The notes under the pieces were generated by a model. That model did no database searches, was not told the origin of the DNA, and saw only the letters and a program-made list of their open reading frames with translations. From assembly GCA_024280855.1 (NCBI GenBank), contig JAJRPG010000062.1, forward strand, positions 1 through 64,000: DNA of 64,000 nucleotides, written 5' to 3'. This DNA is from Planctomycetota bacterium. GTDB lineage: Bacteria; Planctomycetota; Phycisphaerae; UBA1845. A program made the translations under genes and the position numbers. Positions 22,958 to 37,064 of the stretch are shown here, one piece after another; position 1 is the stretch's first letter; each line of letters begins with the position of its first letter.

Positions 22958-24838
22958 ATGGTAGATCACAATCTGATCAACGAACTGGACACAGAGGACG
23001 GCGGACTAGGATCGGAATTCGAATCCCTTTTTTCGGGTAGTGAAGGCGAAGCAGTTGTCGCGACTATCCTTGGGACTGAAGACAAAGAATTTCAGCCTGG
23101 ATCGATTCTAACGGGTAAAGTTGTAGGACGCGCGGGCGACGACATCGTGATTGATGTTGGCCTTAAAAGCGAAGGACTCATACCTACGTCGGAATGGGAC
23201 GATCACAGTTCAGTTGATATTGGCGATGAAATACAGGTCTGGCTCGAAGACGTTGAATCAGATAGTGGCCATGTCGTCTTGTCTAAGCGCAAGGCTGACC
23301 GACTGCTAAACTGGGAACGGATTATCAAATCCAAAAACGAAGGCGATACGATCACTGGTAATGTGATGCGTAAGATCAAGGGCGGGCTATTGGTAGACAT
23401 TGGCTATCCCGTCTTCCTTCCTGCATCGCAGGTTGATATTCGTCGTCCGGGTGATATTGGCGAATACATAGGAAAAGAAATTACGGCTAAGATTCTCAAA
23501 ATCGATACAGAACGCCGCAACATTGTGATTTCGCGTCGTAAGCTCATCGACGAAGAACGTGCCGCGGCGAAAGAGAAGCTCATGGCCGACATTGAGGTCG
23601 GACAGACGCGCAAGGGTACTGTCAAGAACCTCGCGGGCTTTGGCGCATTCGTGGACCTTGGCGGTATCGACGGATTGTTGCACATCACCGATATGAGTTG
23701 GGACCGCGTTGGCCATCCTTCCGAAGTCGTGAAAATCGACCAGGATATCGAGGTCAAGGTTCTCAATATCGACCGGGAAAAAGAGAAAATCGCCCTTGGC
23801 CTCAAGCAACTTAGTGTCAATCCTTGGGAAGAGGTTGAGCAGCGTTACCCACCAGAGACCAAGCTAAATGGCGAGGTCGTCAACATTACGAATTATGGCG
23901 CATTCGTTAAAATCGAAAATGGCGTCGAAGGCTTGGTGCATATTAGCGAGATGAGTTGGACGCGTCGTATCAATCACCCGTCCGAGCTATTAACAGTTGG
24001 CGATGCGATCGATGTTATTGTGCTGGAGGTCAACAAGGACAAGCACGAGATTTCGCTCGGCATCAAACAGACTCAGCCTAATCCTTGGGAAGTTGTCGCT
24101 GACAAATATCCGCCAAACACGCGCGTTTCCGGACGTGTTCGCAACCTGACGAATTATGGGGCGTTTGTAGAAATTGAAGAAGGTATCGACGGCTTGCTGC
24201 ATGTATCGGACATGAGTTGGACCAAAAAGATTAACCACCCGTCCGAATTGATTAAGAAGGGTGACGAGATTGATTGTGTGGTCCTCAACGTGGACCAAGA
24301 AAAACATCGAATCGCGCTCGGGCTGAAGCAAATCCACGAAGATCCGTGGGAACGGGCTGTTATCGACAACTATATTCCTGGGCAAATTGTCGAAGGAATG
24401 GTGACGAAAATCACGAATTTTGGCGTCTTTGTAGAGCTTGAAGAGGACCTTGAGGGGCTACTGCACGTAAGTGAATTAGCCGATCATAAGGTTGAGGATC
24501 CGCATGCCGAAGTGAAAATCGGCGATAAAGTATTGGTCAAAATTCTTCGCGTTGACGCCGTCGAACGTAAAATCGGCCTGTCGAAAAAGCGTGCAGAATG
24601 GTCTACCGAAAAGCAGGAAGCAGAAGCCGAAGAATCAGTCAAAAGCGCACCGCGTAGAGGTGGACTGGAAGGCCCAGGCGAGCTGACGATGGACATGTTG
24701 GACGCCACAGTGTCGTCCAAAAAGCCTGTGCCAGCACCTGCTGTGGTAGAAACGCCGACCGATACGCCTACAGAGGCGGTAGAGGCCAAGGAAGACGGCG
24801 ATGCCCCTGAGGCAACACCTGAAACCTCGGACGAATAA
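22958..24838 (+). CDS. rpsA: 30S ribosomal protein S1 (six S1 domains)
   Basis: A 626-aa mRNA-binding ribosomal protein. Six S1 (OB-fold) repeats begin near residues 50, 130, 215, 300, 385 and 473. The last four carry the familiar KNLAGFGAFVDL, NITNYGAFVKI, NLTNYGAFVEI and KITNFGVFVEL cores and end in GLKQ-type strands. The first two are divergent, as in ribosome-binding domains of S1. A disordered acidic tail (from about 560) ends EDGDAPEATPETSDE. The sixth domain (24380-24605) is copied in the gene at 34076-34912. The ATG is preceded by a weak AGAAGAG. Confidence 0.94.
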   Translation: MVDHNLINELDTEDGGLGSEFESLFSGSEGEAVVATILGTEDKEFQPGSILTGKVVGRAGDDIVIDVGLKSEGLIPTSEWDDHSSVDIGDEIQVWLEDVESDSGHVVLSKRKADRLLNWERIIKSKNEGDTITGNVMRKIKGGLLVDIGYPVFLPASQVDIRRPGDIGEYIGKEITAKILKIDTERRNIVISRRKLIDEERAAAKEKLMADIEVGQTRKGTVKNLAGFGAFVDLGGIDGLLHITDMSWDRVGHPSEVVKIDQDIEVKVLNIDREKEKIALGLKQLSVNPWEEVEQRYPPETKLNGEVVNITNYGAFVKIENGVEGLVHISEMSWTRRINHPSELLTVGDAIDVIVLEVNKDKHEISLGIKQTQPNPWEVVADKYPPNTRVSGRVRNLTNYGAFVEIEEGIDGLLHVSDMSWTKKINHPSELIKKGDEIDCVVLNVDQEKHRIALGLKQIHEDPWERAVIDNYIPGQIVEGMVTKITNFGVFVELEEDLEGLLHVSELADHKVEDPHAEVKIGDKVLVKILRVDAVERKIGLSKKRAEWSTEKQEAEAEESVKSAPRRGGLEGPGELTMDMLDATVSSKKPVPAPAVVETPTDTPTEAVEAKEDGDAPEATPETSDE

Positions 24839-32811: not shown

Positions 32812-33747
32812 TTATTGCAAGTGCGCTTCCCAGATTTTTCGGTAACGGGCTTCGAGGCGGTCTTGGTTAAAGCCGAACATGCGGCAGAGTTTTCGCTGCA
32901 ACAACAACCCAAATCCATATCGCTTTATCGTGAAAAGTTTTTTCTTAAACCAATGATCGTAGTGGAGCAAAAAATTTCGCAACGCCCCCAATCGCTTCGG
33001 CTCGAATTCGAGTTCGTACCCCAGGCTCGTAAGCATAGGCCCAGCTACGGCTTCTGCGATAGCTTTTTCCTTAGCCGGGATGCGCTGCTTCCATACATGA
33101 ACCTTACTCGGGTCAGGCAAGCTGTAACTGGAATTATCGCTATAGGACATCATCTTTTCGTCGTAGCTTGTCCCTAGATATTCACAAATACGGGCTAGCT
33201 CACTTTTGGAATCACCGATTAGCGAATCGTATCGCACGACGAGAAAGTCCTGTTCAGGTATCACCGACTTCAGCAACTCAACTTGTTGCATGGTGCATAG
33301 CCATCGCTTGGCGCCGGCGTACATATTCCCCGCCCAGCCCATAGCGCAAATCGAACGAGAGACGGCTCTGCCATCGCGCAGCATGTGAATAAACTTCGCG
33401 TTGGGAAAAAGCTTCGGGAGATGATGAAAATCTCGATGGATCGTCGCGCCGATTATCTTCTTCCGAGTTTGATTCGCCCGCTCATCGTAAAAACCTTGTA
33501 CGGCTTGATGATAGGTTTGATCAGTTCGAGGCAAGCCAAGATTGACGTGGGTAAAATGCCAATCCCCCTGAAGTTCCGTTAGCCAAGGCTGTCGGACCAA
33601 GTTAGCGGGATCATCATCGAAGGCTACCATGAACTCGCTGTCGTACATGCACGAAATATCCGGGTGATGATCTAACATCAATCGAAGCAACGTCGTGCCC
33701 GAACGGACAGAACCCACCACGACAAATTGTTGAGAAGAATCATCCAT
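32812..33747 (-). CDS. Sulfotransferase family protein
   Basis: 311 aa from ATG 33747 (AGGA 8 bases upstream; the earlier in-frame start at 33810 lacks a site). It has a PAPS 5'-phosphosulfate-binding loop at the start (VVVGSVRSGTTLLRLMLDHHP), a 3'-phosphate-binding strand-helix (IHMLRDGRAVSRS), and basic and aromatic residues toward the C-terminus. This fits sulfotransferases that transfer sulfate from PAPS to polysaccharides, lipids or tyrosine. The acceptor is unknown; a cell-surface sugar is a reasonable guess. No partner genes are adjacent. Confidence 0.85.
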   Translation of the reverse strand: MDDSSQQFVVVGSVRSGTTLLRLMLDHHPDISCMYDSEFMVAFDDDPANLVRQPWLTELQGDWHFTHVNLGLPRTDQTYHQAVQGFYDERANQTRKKIIGATIHRDFHHLPKLFPNAKFIHMLRDGRAVSRSICAMGWAGNMYAGAKRWLCTMQQVELLKSVIPEQDFLVVRYDSLIGDSKSELARICEYLGTSYDEKMMSYSDNSSYSLPDPSKVHVWKQRIPAKEKAIAEAVAGPMLTSLGYELEFEPKRLGALRNFLLHYDHWFKKKLFTIKRYGFGLLLQRKLCRMFGFNQDRLEARYRKIWEAHLQ

Positions 33748-34075
33748 GCGAAAAATCCTAACGAACAAAGCCCTATCTTGCCATTGGATCGTACCTCTCG
33801 CGCGACGCACCTGAGATCGTACCTGGTTATTATCGGCTGACTATCGCCACAGATAGAATCTCCGTTCGCGCAATTATCACTGATAACGCATCTGAAAAAG
33901 CTGTCAAACAGCGCAAAGTAACGCCTGACACACTCAAATAGCCTTCCAGGATGTTTCATCCTGGCGGAAGTGGATAGCCAAGATCAAAATATTCCCCTGC
34001 TAGCTACGAATAGAGTATCATCTCAGGTAAGATTGACTTGAGAATTTCGGCGGGATGATTGGGCGAGGAATTGTC
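33748..34075. other. Divergent spacer, nothing recognised
   Basis: 328 bases between the sulfotransferase and the S1-fusion gene. No repeat copy, RNA gene or gene-like frame is evident. GAGGA at 34065-34069 serves the downstream gene. Confidence 0.5.
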
Positions 34076-34912
34076 ATGATAAACGTTTGCATTATGTCCG
34101 GACACGATGGGCAGTTGAGATCAGAGAAGAAGTTTTACTTCACGCTCATGGGCCAATGCGCGATGACTAAACCCACCATCGCCCGGCTGATTATGGATCA
34201 ACGCAATCGCTCGCCGCAGATCAACCAAGCCCCCACTCCGAAATTTTTTCTCACCATCATGGGCAATACGGAACTGACGTGCCCCACGCTGACGCAGGAA
34301 TTCCTGGACCTTCGTGAGTTGATCGATAGCGGCAACTTCTCCCTTCACCATTGGGATCAAACTTTGGCAGACCTAGCTACAGTAGACCATTCCATCGCGT
34401 CTTTCACGCTCATGGGCCAGTTCGATGAGCATGGCCTACCTCCTGAAAATGACGAGGTGGACGGATTAGCCCTCCACCGCCATTTGGGCAATTTGTGTGA
34501 GGAATCGCTCAACATCCTTCAATCCGGCGTTGGGCTACGCGGCGCAGAACGGCACACCATCATCTATCGCGCACTCGAAGCCGACCTCGAATCCGAAGAA
34601 ACGGCCTCCCGGCAAATTGCGACCGGCGTGAAACAAGGTTTCGAAGATCCGTGGAAAAGAGCCGATATCAATTATATTCCAGGTCAAACTATACAGGGAA
34701 CTGTGACGAAAATCACTAATTTCGGCGTTTTTGTAGAGCTTGAAGAGGGCATAGAAGGATTAGTGCATACGAGTGAATTAGCCGATCATAAAGTGAATGA
34801 TCCTCGTGACGAAGTTAGAGTCAGGGATAAAATGCAGGTCAAAATTCTCAGTGTTGATTCTGTCGATCGTAGTATTACCCTATCGAAAAAACGTGCAGAA
34901 TGGGCCGCATGA
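34076..34912 (+). CDS. S1-domain protein: novel N-terminus fused to a copy of the rpsA sixth S1 domain
   Basis: 278 aa from ATG 34076 (GAGGA 6 bases upstream; a longer frame to 34055 is possible). Residues about 195-276 are one S1 domain (PGQTIQGTVTKITNFGVFVEL...SKKRAEW). It matches the last S1 domain of rpsA strongly in both protein and DNA (GTGACGAAAATCAC and TTTGTAGAGCTTGAAGAGG are the same). The copied part also includes the preceding GVKQ..EDPW linker. Residues 1-190 match no family known to me and contain FTLMGQ, LTIMGN and FTLMGQ motifs near residues 22, 63 and 113. A role in RNA binding or translation is inferred from the S1 domain only. Confidence 0.85.
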   Translation: MINVCIMSGHDGQLRSEKKFYFTLMGQCAMTKPTIARLIMDQRNRSPQINQAPTPKFFLTIMGNTELTCPTLTQEFLDLRELIDSGNFSLHHWDQTLADLATVDHSIASFTLMGQFDEHGLPPENDEVDGLALHRHLGNLCEESLNILQSGVGLRGAERHTIIYRALEADLESEETASRQIATGVKQGFEDPWKRADINYIPGQTIQGTVTKITNFGVFVELEEGIEGLVHTSELADHKVNDPRDEVRVRDKMQVKILSVDSVDRSITLSKKRAEWAA

Positions 34913-35230: not shown

Positions 35231-35560
35231 TCAATCCAGAGGTATTTTATTAACGCTAGCGGCTGCAATGATGTGTTCGATCATTTCATCCTGCTCGATT
35301 ATGGCTTCCTTGTTGGCCTTTGAGAGTTTTTTTATGCTATTTTCCACACTTAATGCCAAGCCTTTCGCACCAATCTTTTTCGTGAACACGACATGCAACG
35401 GACCTTTGCCACGAAGAGACTTCGCGCCTTTTCCTTTGCCCTGCTGATGTTCACCTAGTCGCCGAGATACGTCGGTCGAAATCCCCGTGTACAATGCACC
35501 GTTACCGCAGCGCAGCATATAGACATACCACTGAGGTGATATAGTTGAGTCATTTAGCAT
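35231..35560 (-). CDS. GIY-YIG nuclease-like protein (UPF0213/YhbQ type)
   Basis: 109 aa from ATG 35560 (GGGGAAG, 7-base spacer). The family signature is complete: WYVYMLRCGNGALYTGISTDVSRRLGEHQQGKG, then GAKSLRGKGPLHVVF. UPF0213 proteins are small single-domain GIY-YIG members of unsettled function, some with DNase activity. The tail (KKLSKANKEAIIEQ) is the usual helix. It converges with tRNA-Ser, whose end is 79 bases away. Confidence 0.9.
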   Translation of the reverse strand: MLNDSTISPQWYVYMLRCGNGALYTGISTDVSRRLGEHQQGKGKGAKSLRGKGPLHVVFTKKIGAKGLALSVENSIKKLSKANKEAIIEQDEMIEHIIAAASVNKIPLD

Positions 35561-35882
35561 CTTCAAGCTTCCCCAACTCCCTTGTCCTGCCGTCTCTCTC
35601 GGAACTTGCAGGATTCATCAATCATTCCAGTCGATATCATCGAACCATTCACCGATTTTAGATCACTAGCTTGATCTATGGCTTACCTTGACGACCACCA
35701 TTGAAATGAGGATAATTGAAACGTGCGGAATGGGCACATTTGATGCGCCAAGGGCAACCTCAGTTCTAGCTTGGCCAAAAATCATTGCTAACCGCAGTCG
35801 AGTTGACGTGTCTTAATGGATTGATGGGTAAACGTGGCCCCAAATATAGCGAATAGTTCACTTTATTGAGGAGAAATTTTGC
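35561..35882. other. Spacer with no recognised gene
   Basis: 322 bases upstream of the FlgT-N/LPP20-like gene. GAGGAG sits just before its ATG. A short stretch at about 35721 reads KRAEWA, as in the end of the S1 domains, but only for six codons and not in a longer frame. Confidence 0.45.
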
Positions 35883-37064
35883 ATGCAAAGTGCCATCAGA
35901 ATTCGAAGCATTCGTCTGTTAATTATCATGAGCTTGCTGGCGTCGCAGTCAATCGTTTACGCGAGTGATAAAACTCGCACGGTTCGCGCGACTGGTAGCG
36001 CTGTCGGAGAAGGTGCGGCGGCGAAGGCTGGTGCGATATTGGATGCACAGCGGAAGGCTGTCATAGAAGCGGCTGGTGTCTTTATTGATGCGCAGTCACT
36101 GGTCAATAATTACGAGCTAATCGACGAAACAATCCTTTCCCACGCCCGTGGATACGTCACGGATACTAAAATTATTAATAATTGGAACGAAAATGGATTA
36201 ACGTATTGCGAAATTCGCGCGGTCGTCGGCGTAGGCAATCTGGAACGGGATTGGAAAGCTGCCCTGCCTCAGCTAATACATCGCCAGAGTGCGCCGAGGT
36301 GCGTAGTCATTTTTTCCGAGGATGCGGACACGACAGACTCTATACCTGCTAAACCTGGCGGTAGCTGTGCCCATCGGATAGAAAATCTGCTGCAAAAAAG
36401 TGGCTTACGATTGATCGATAAGCACACCATCGATCAGGTTTTGTTCAAGGATACCGAGGCGGCATTCCTGCGTGGCGATGCGGAGCAAATAGCCGCCAAG
36501 GCACAACAATTCGATGCGGAATTATTGATTTTCGGTCAAGCGCAAGCAGAGCCACTCGGACCTCAATCCATTGGCGGACGGACACTATACCGATGGGAGA
36601 TGGTATTGGATGCACGCATCATTCGCGCAGATACCGCAGAGGTTATTGTAACGGATTCCTACCCCCTCAAAACACCACATATGGCTGTTAATACGCGATG
36701 CGGCAGCAAGGGCTTTCGTAAGCTAGCTGATAAGGTCGGGCCTAAACTGCTTCGTGACCTAACCGACCACTGGCAGAAACGATTTCAACATCGCATTTTC
36801 GAAGTGCAGTTTCATGGATGCTCAGCCAACAACTTACGGCAACAAATCGTGCCCGCATTGTCGAGGATGCCAGGCGTCCGGGCCTATCGCGGCGTAGACG
36901 TAAAACGTACCGCGATGGAGGAATCATCAACAGAAATCTATTGGGCAGGAAACCTGTCTTCTTTGGCCAATGCAATTAACCAAATAAAAATCGACAACGT
37001 AGAATTTGAAGAAGAATCCAGCAGCGGTGGCCGCATTCGTTTTGAAGTGATAGGCCTCGATTAG
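35883..37064 (+). CDS. Secreted FlgT-N/LPP20-like protein
   Basis: A 393-aa protein with a signal peptide (RIRSIRLLIIMSLLASQSIVYASD). The strong ribosome site GAGGAG is 9 bases from the ATG. Residues 30-115 fit the FlgT N-terminal/LPP20 fold (RTVRATGSAVGEGAAAKAGAILDAQRKAVIEAAGVFID...IRAVVGVGNLERDW). A second region (about 135-270) has a pattern like the CsgG/LpoB domain (VVIFSEDADTTD, LRLIDKHTIDQVL, AQQFDAELLIFGQAQAE). In other bacteria such folds sit in the periplasm around flagella or wall synthases. No flagellar genes are adjacent, so the role here is open. Confidence 0.75.
   Translation: MQSAIRIRSIRLLIIMSLLASQSIVYASDKTRTVRATGSAVGEGAAAKAGAILDAQRKAVIEAAGVFIDAQSLVNNYELIDETILSHARGYVTDTKIINNWNENGLTYCEIRAVVGVGNLERDWKAALPQLIHRQSAPRCVVIFSEDADTTDSIPAKPGGSCAHRIENLLQKSGLRLIDKHTIDQVLFKDTEAAFLRGDAEQIAAKAQQFDAELLIFGQAQAEPLGPQSIGGRTLYRWEMVLDARIIRADTAEVIVTDSYPLKTPHMAVNTRCGSKGFRKLADKVGPKLLRDLTDHWQKRFQHRIFEVQFHGCSANNLRQQIVPALSRMPGVRAYRGVDVKRTAMEESSTEIYWAGNLSSLANAINQIKIDNVEFEEESSSGGRIRFEVIGLD

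Follow-up and report, generated by a model that had tools for sequence, protein, structure and literature searches.

PNPase, RNase R and Tex are tethered to RNA by an S1 domain that lies at their C-terminus or close to it. The window analysed here, a stretch of 64,000 nucleotides from a Planctomycetota bacterium (class Phycisphaerae; contig JAJRPG010000062.1), contains a gene whose product also ends in an S1 domain (Table 1), and by analogy this fusion protein may work similarly. However, the S1 domains of PNPase, RNase R and Tex are ancient fusions to enzymes, whereas the fusion in the window is limited to one species in the data examined and its S1 partner is a domain without known activity. 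The small post-transcriptional regulators CvfD, Ygs and GSP13 are also small proteins with just one S1 domain and are distinct from ribosomal protein bS1. They differ in their independent origin, and the large N-terminal domain of the fusion protein is absent from GSP13; the fusion protein scores 64.3 bits with the model of this group (NF040579), below the cut-off of 117 bits. With the sixth S1 domain of bS1 (rpsA) the C-terminal tail shares its origin, the linker, the RNA-site residues and the KKRAEW end. Nevertheless, the fusion protein has one S1 domain instead of six and is without the ribosome-anchoring domains of bS1. Of the NCBIfam models, one for IspH/bS1 fusions scores it highest, at 101 where the cut-off is 624; models for bS1 by itself reach at most 92, with cut-offs of at least 368. 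A literature search for such a fusion found none.

Table 1. Positions of the fusion gene, its parts and its source gene in the window. G001 and G002 are both other genomes of the genus.
Feature	Position	Strand	Remarks
Fusion gene, 278 aa	34076..34912	+	Resident N-terminal protein followed by S1 domain; ATG conserved in G001 and G002
Resident domain, residues 1-182	34076..34621	+	Standalone Phycisphaerae family; beta-beta-alpha repeats (FTLMG / LTIMG / FTLMG)
Fusion junction	34610..34624	+	Native ...CGGCAAATTGCG then ACC; TAA stop there in G001/G002; AATCGCG in donor rpsA
Duplicated rpsA end	34622..34909	+	Linker (GVKQGFEDPWKRAD) and sixth S1 domain
rpsA, 626 aa, six S1 domains	22958..24838	+	Paralogous source gene, 9.2 kb upstream
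rpsA stretch matching the duplicated piece	24310..24601	+	By alignment; limits approximate

The open reading frame and its translation are as given in the first-pass annotation, which had described residues 195-276 as a copy of rpsA domain six on an unfamiliar N-terminus. Comparison of the tail with rpsA confirmed the copy but not its start, which lies at about residue 183 (nt 34622), so that the linker GVKQGFEDPWKRAD is included. At the amino acid level the tail is 72% identical to domain six across the domain, or 71% across the aligned segment (74.6% in nucleotides), compared with 24-38% to rpsA domains one to five and 19-59% between pairs of rpsA's own S1 domains. The similarity is thus clearly greater than that expected of any two S1 domains. 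Approximately 95 C-terminal residues are S1: PF00575 scores 69 bits over residues 202-272 (curated cut-off 22), and the other Pfam matches are to related S1 models over the same stretch only. Besides the fusion gene itself, the best match in the genome is rpsA (24305-24604, 70% identical). The runs of identical DNA reported earlier were also found, with the 19-nt TTTGTAGAGCTTGAAGAGG at exactly two places, 24428 and 34730 (chance expectation 0.00). A tree built from the DNA of 25 last S1 domains places the fused copy inside the rpsA clade of the genus (97/96), on a long branch (0.53) and with a base composition unlike the others; its position beside the rpsA of the window's own genome (G000) and of G001 is poorly supported.

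Other S1 proteins were seen in these genomes. G000 encodes a second multi-S1-domain protein besides rpsA (L003, G000:C98:1046-1774; open frame of 618 aa), and comparable second S1 proteins in many relatives match the tail at ~40%, in frames of roughly 500-617 aa. G047, the rpsA of which is on C61, has a second copy of rpsA domain six close to the end of another contig (G047:C120:65-370), within a frame of 218 aa; this copy may be a duplicate contig end.

The state before the fusion can be read from the congeners. In G001 and G002 the protein ends in ...SRQIA followed by TAA, exactly where the S1 piece starts in the window, in which the same ...SRQIA runs directly into the S1 linker. The reading frame is uninterrupted across the join, and the S1 part has no internal stops and ends in its own stop codon. 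With a stop codon at the junction in both congeners, the fusion arose on the lineage of the window species once this had separated from them. No S1 fusion was found in the other family members checked, all of which stop within ~13 residues of the core. In G017, G034, G004, G044, G354, G390, G395 and G381 large open frames were traced to open sequence upstream, and the proteins there end normally. The duplication had been called recent, which holds phylogenetically, since it followed the split from both sequenced congeners. However, the copy itself is well diverged, with a dS of about 1.2 to the genus rpsA consensus, near saturation. The resident part has a dS of 1.49 between G000 and G001, but rpsA is probably under codon constraint, so that the two clocks cannot be compared; the date is therefore taken from the stop codons only.

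Donor and acceptor have AATYGCG in common where they are joined; this hints at recombination through a short shared sequence, although it is too short for proof. Nothing resembling a mobile-element end was seen on inspection of the junction sequence. In the event, an rpsA piece of ~290 bp comprising the linker and the sixth S1 domain was duplicated onto the 3' end of the resident gene and took the place of its stop codon, with the rest of the locus unmoved; the join would be by illegitimate recombination, perhaps at AATYGCG. The flanks match those of G001, with a sulfotransferase gene upstream and homology resuming downstream as far as a tRNA-Ser gene. In G002 rpsA and the resident gene likewise lie on one strand of one contig, about 7.5 kb apart.

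Several neighbours were recorded alongside. The sulfotransferase gene (window 32812-33810), which adjoins the fusion gene, is common to G001 and was not seen at this place in G002. Downstream of the tRNA-Ser gene are genes for a small GIY-YIG protein of 111 aa (35231-35566) and for a protein of 393 aa that apparently has a signal peptide and matches no Pfam family (35883-37064). No neighbour gene is conserved across the whole resident family. In one sub-clade (upstream of 6001 in L089), a gene for an FHA-GAF-SpoIIE phosphatase, a small gene and an AAA_17-like gene precede the resident gene, and the upstream arrangement is the same in L088, L090, L094, L095, L097, L101 and L103; a functional link with these neighbours is possible for that clade only. 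L089 is titled Alphaproteobacteria yet groups with the Phycisphaerae family, and is probably a mislabelled MAG.

The N-terminal part had been taken for a new domain that matches no known family. Indeed, residues 1-182 matched no Pfam or NCBIfam family; however, the part is not new: it is resident, and conserved in the order as a protein on its own. The standalone form of ~170-190 aa is found in Phycisphaerae MAGs, and 36 of 60 relatives have the family, as do 54 of the 114 genomes from the order; in a phylum-wide sample it was present in 2 of 294 genomes, counting that of the window. Named records with the family are Phycisphaerae and Planctomycetota MAGs. Residues 1-171 match the alignment model of this unnamed family (A3) over its full length, with an E of 7e-72 in the window's own genome, the window row itself being included in the model. 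The identity of the resident part to its genus orthologues is 82% and 71%.

AlphaFold2 prediction of the resident domain from 41 sequences gave a confident model (pLDDT 90.3, pTM 0.85) with four strand-turn-strand rungs, a helix after three of them and a long C-terminal helix at the end. The three FTLMG-like motifs noticed at first pass are real and form the turns of an internal beta-beta-alpha repeat. Alignment of repeat 1 with repeat 2 by hhalign gave an E of 1.8e-12, and the third copy is weak. A profile search of PDB sequences returned a single match at E 0.11, which was rejected, and a fold search of the PDB gave no convincing solved structure (Foldseek best E 0.11). The best VIA matches, to the SV2 luminal beta-helix (Z 3.8) and to SufB (Z 3.0), were too weak for use. 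The missing PDB match does not show that the fold is new. The F-G-G-x-E-I strand-turn-strand motif of the resident domain recalls the LiaF-like C-terminal domain (PF09922), a likeness that we take to be superficial and a lead only. Sequence gave no support for a relationship: 30 members of the family gave no match to PF09922 at E up to 1, and PF09922 is absent from the window's own genome and from 119 genomes of the phylum.

Substitutions in the fused domain were counted against the genus rpsA consensus. The counts were 36.3 synonymous changes on 61.2 sites and 34.7 nonsynonymous changes on 217.8 sites, giving a dN/dS of about 0.15 that is far from neutral (Fisher p about 1e-10), although both this ratio and the age of the domain are rough because synonymous sites are near saturation. 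The resident part is constrained too (dN/dS 0.07 against G001) and exhibits no clear speed-up, with 13 unique residues in G000 and 8 in G001. The RNA-binding site of S1 domains consists of F19, F22, H34, D64 and R68 in PNPase numbering (PMC6832287). Mapping through alignment with the genome's own PNPase showed that all five residues are kept in the tail, as F216, F219, H231, D261 and R265. The tail is less acidic than rpsA domain six (net -2 vs. -6), and about 28-29% of its domain residues have changed, compared with 1-2% in rpsA domain six within the genus, so the job of the tail differs from that of domain six or is looser.

Given the domain, the tail likely binds RNA, with indirect support from the kept residues and the purifying selection. 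The gene is a lineage-specific fusion whose new tail has since evolved under purifying selection with its RNA-binding face intact, and we consider it probable, if well short of certain, that the resident protein thereby acquired a functional module for binding RNA. The change in 29% of the domain residues leaves an appreciable, though clearly smaller, chance that the tail is tolerated or structural, without RNA-binding function, and must only stay foldable to spare the resident domain. Selection against misfolding alone can yield a low dN/dS, and the congeners manage without an S1 tail. However, the tail retains all five residues of the RNA site, and a stop codon, the simplest loss of a useless tail, has not appeared over a synonymous distance of about 1.2.

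Under the reading of a gained RNA-binding module, the tail would act as a tether to single-stranded RNA (or to the ribosome or mRNA), bringing the activity of the resident domain to RNA. At its C-terminal end the resident domain has a long helix, which enters the S1 linker and would serve as a spacer; in the full-length AlphaFold2 model a helix of residues 156-188 spans the junction, and the S1 part has low confidence because the alignment has no rows for S1. Domains 5-6, the last two of E. coli S1, are dispensable for growth and add only slightly to the binding of rpsO mRNA (PMC3858243). By analogy, a lone sixth domain may thus tether weakly, lending affinity for RNA to the action of the resident domain. 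The translation or RNA regulator proposed at first pass goes beyond this: that the fusion protein acts on translation is a guess. It is unlikely that the resident family already belongs to the translation or RNA metabolism of Phycisphaerae and that the capture of S1 turned it into a regulator that acts in trans in association with the ribosome or mRNA and exists in this species only.

Slightly less probable again is a decoy or competitor of ribosomal S1, in which the tail would occupy the partners of S1 domain six or the rpsA mRNA and so tune translation or rpsA autoregulation. Such a role would suit a tail whose paralogous source lies 9.2 kb away on the same strand and which brought along KQ..EDPW, the linker that joins S1 domains, but the fusion protein lacks the domains that anchor S1 to the ribosome, which are domains 1-2 in E. 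coli (PMC3296737). A chimera made during assembly from the resident gene and an rpsA fragment is rejected as highly improbable: although the fusion is known from one MAG, the one genome of its species, and is absent in both congeners, the piece differs by 25% from the genome's own rpsA and by more from all others yet belongs to the genus clade, the frame continues through the join, and the flanks are shared on both sides.

To our knowledge, cases in which an essential ribosomal protein gave a domain to another protein are usually inferred for ancient fusions only. The locus is a clean case of such a gain, with the tail in none of the relatives examined. The acceptor represents a so far undescribed, conserved family of proteins, for which the fold is predicted with confidence and no relative was found in the libraries searched. 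The donor, the acceptor, the state before the fusion in two congeners, the junction and the later selection are all readable from sequence, so that the steps by which a duplication became a selected fusion are open to testing.
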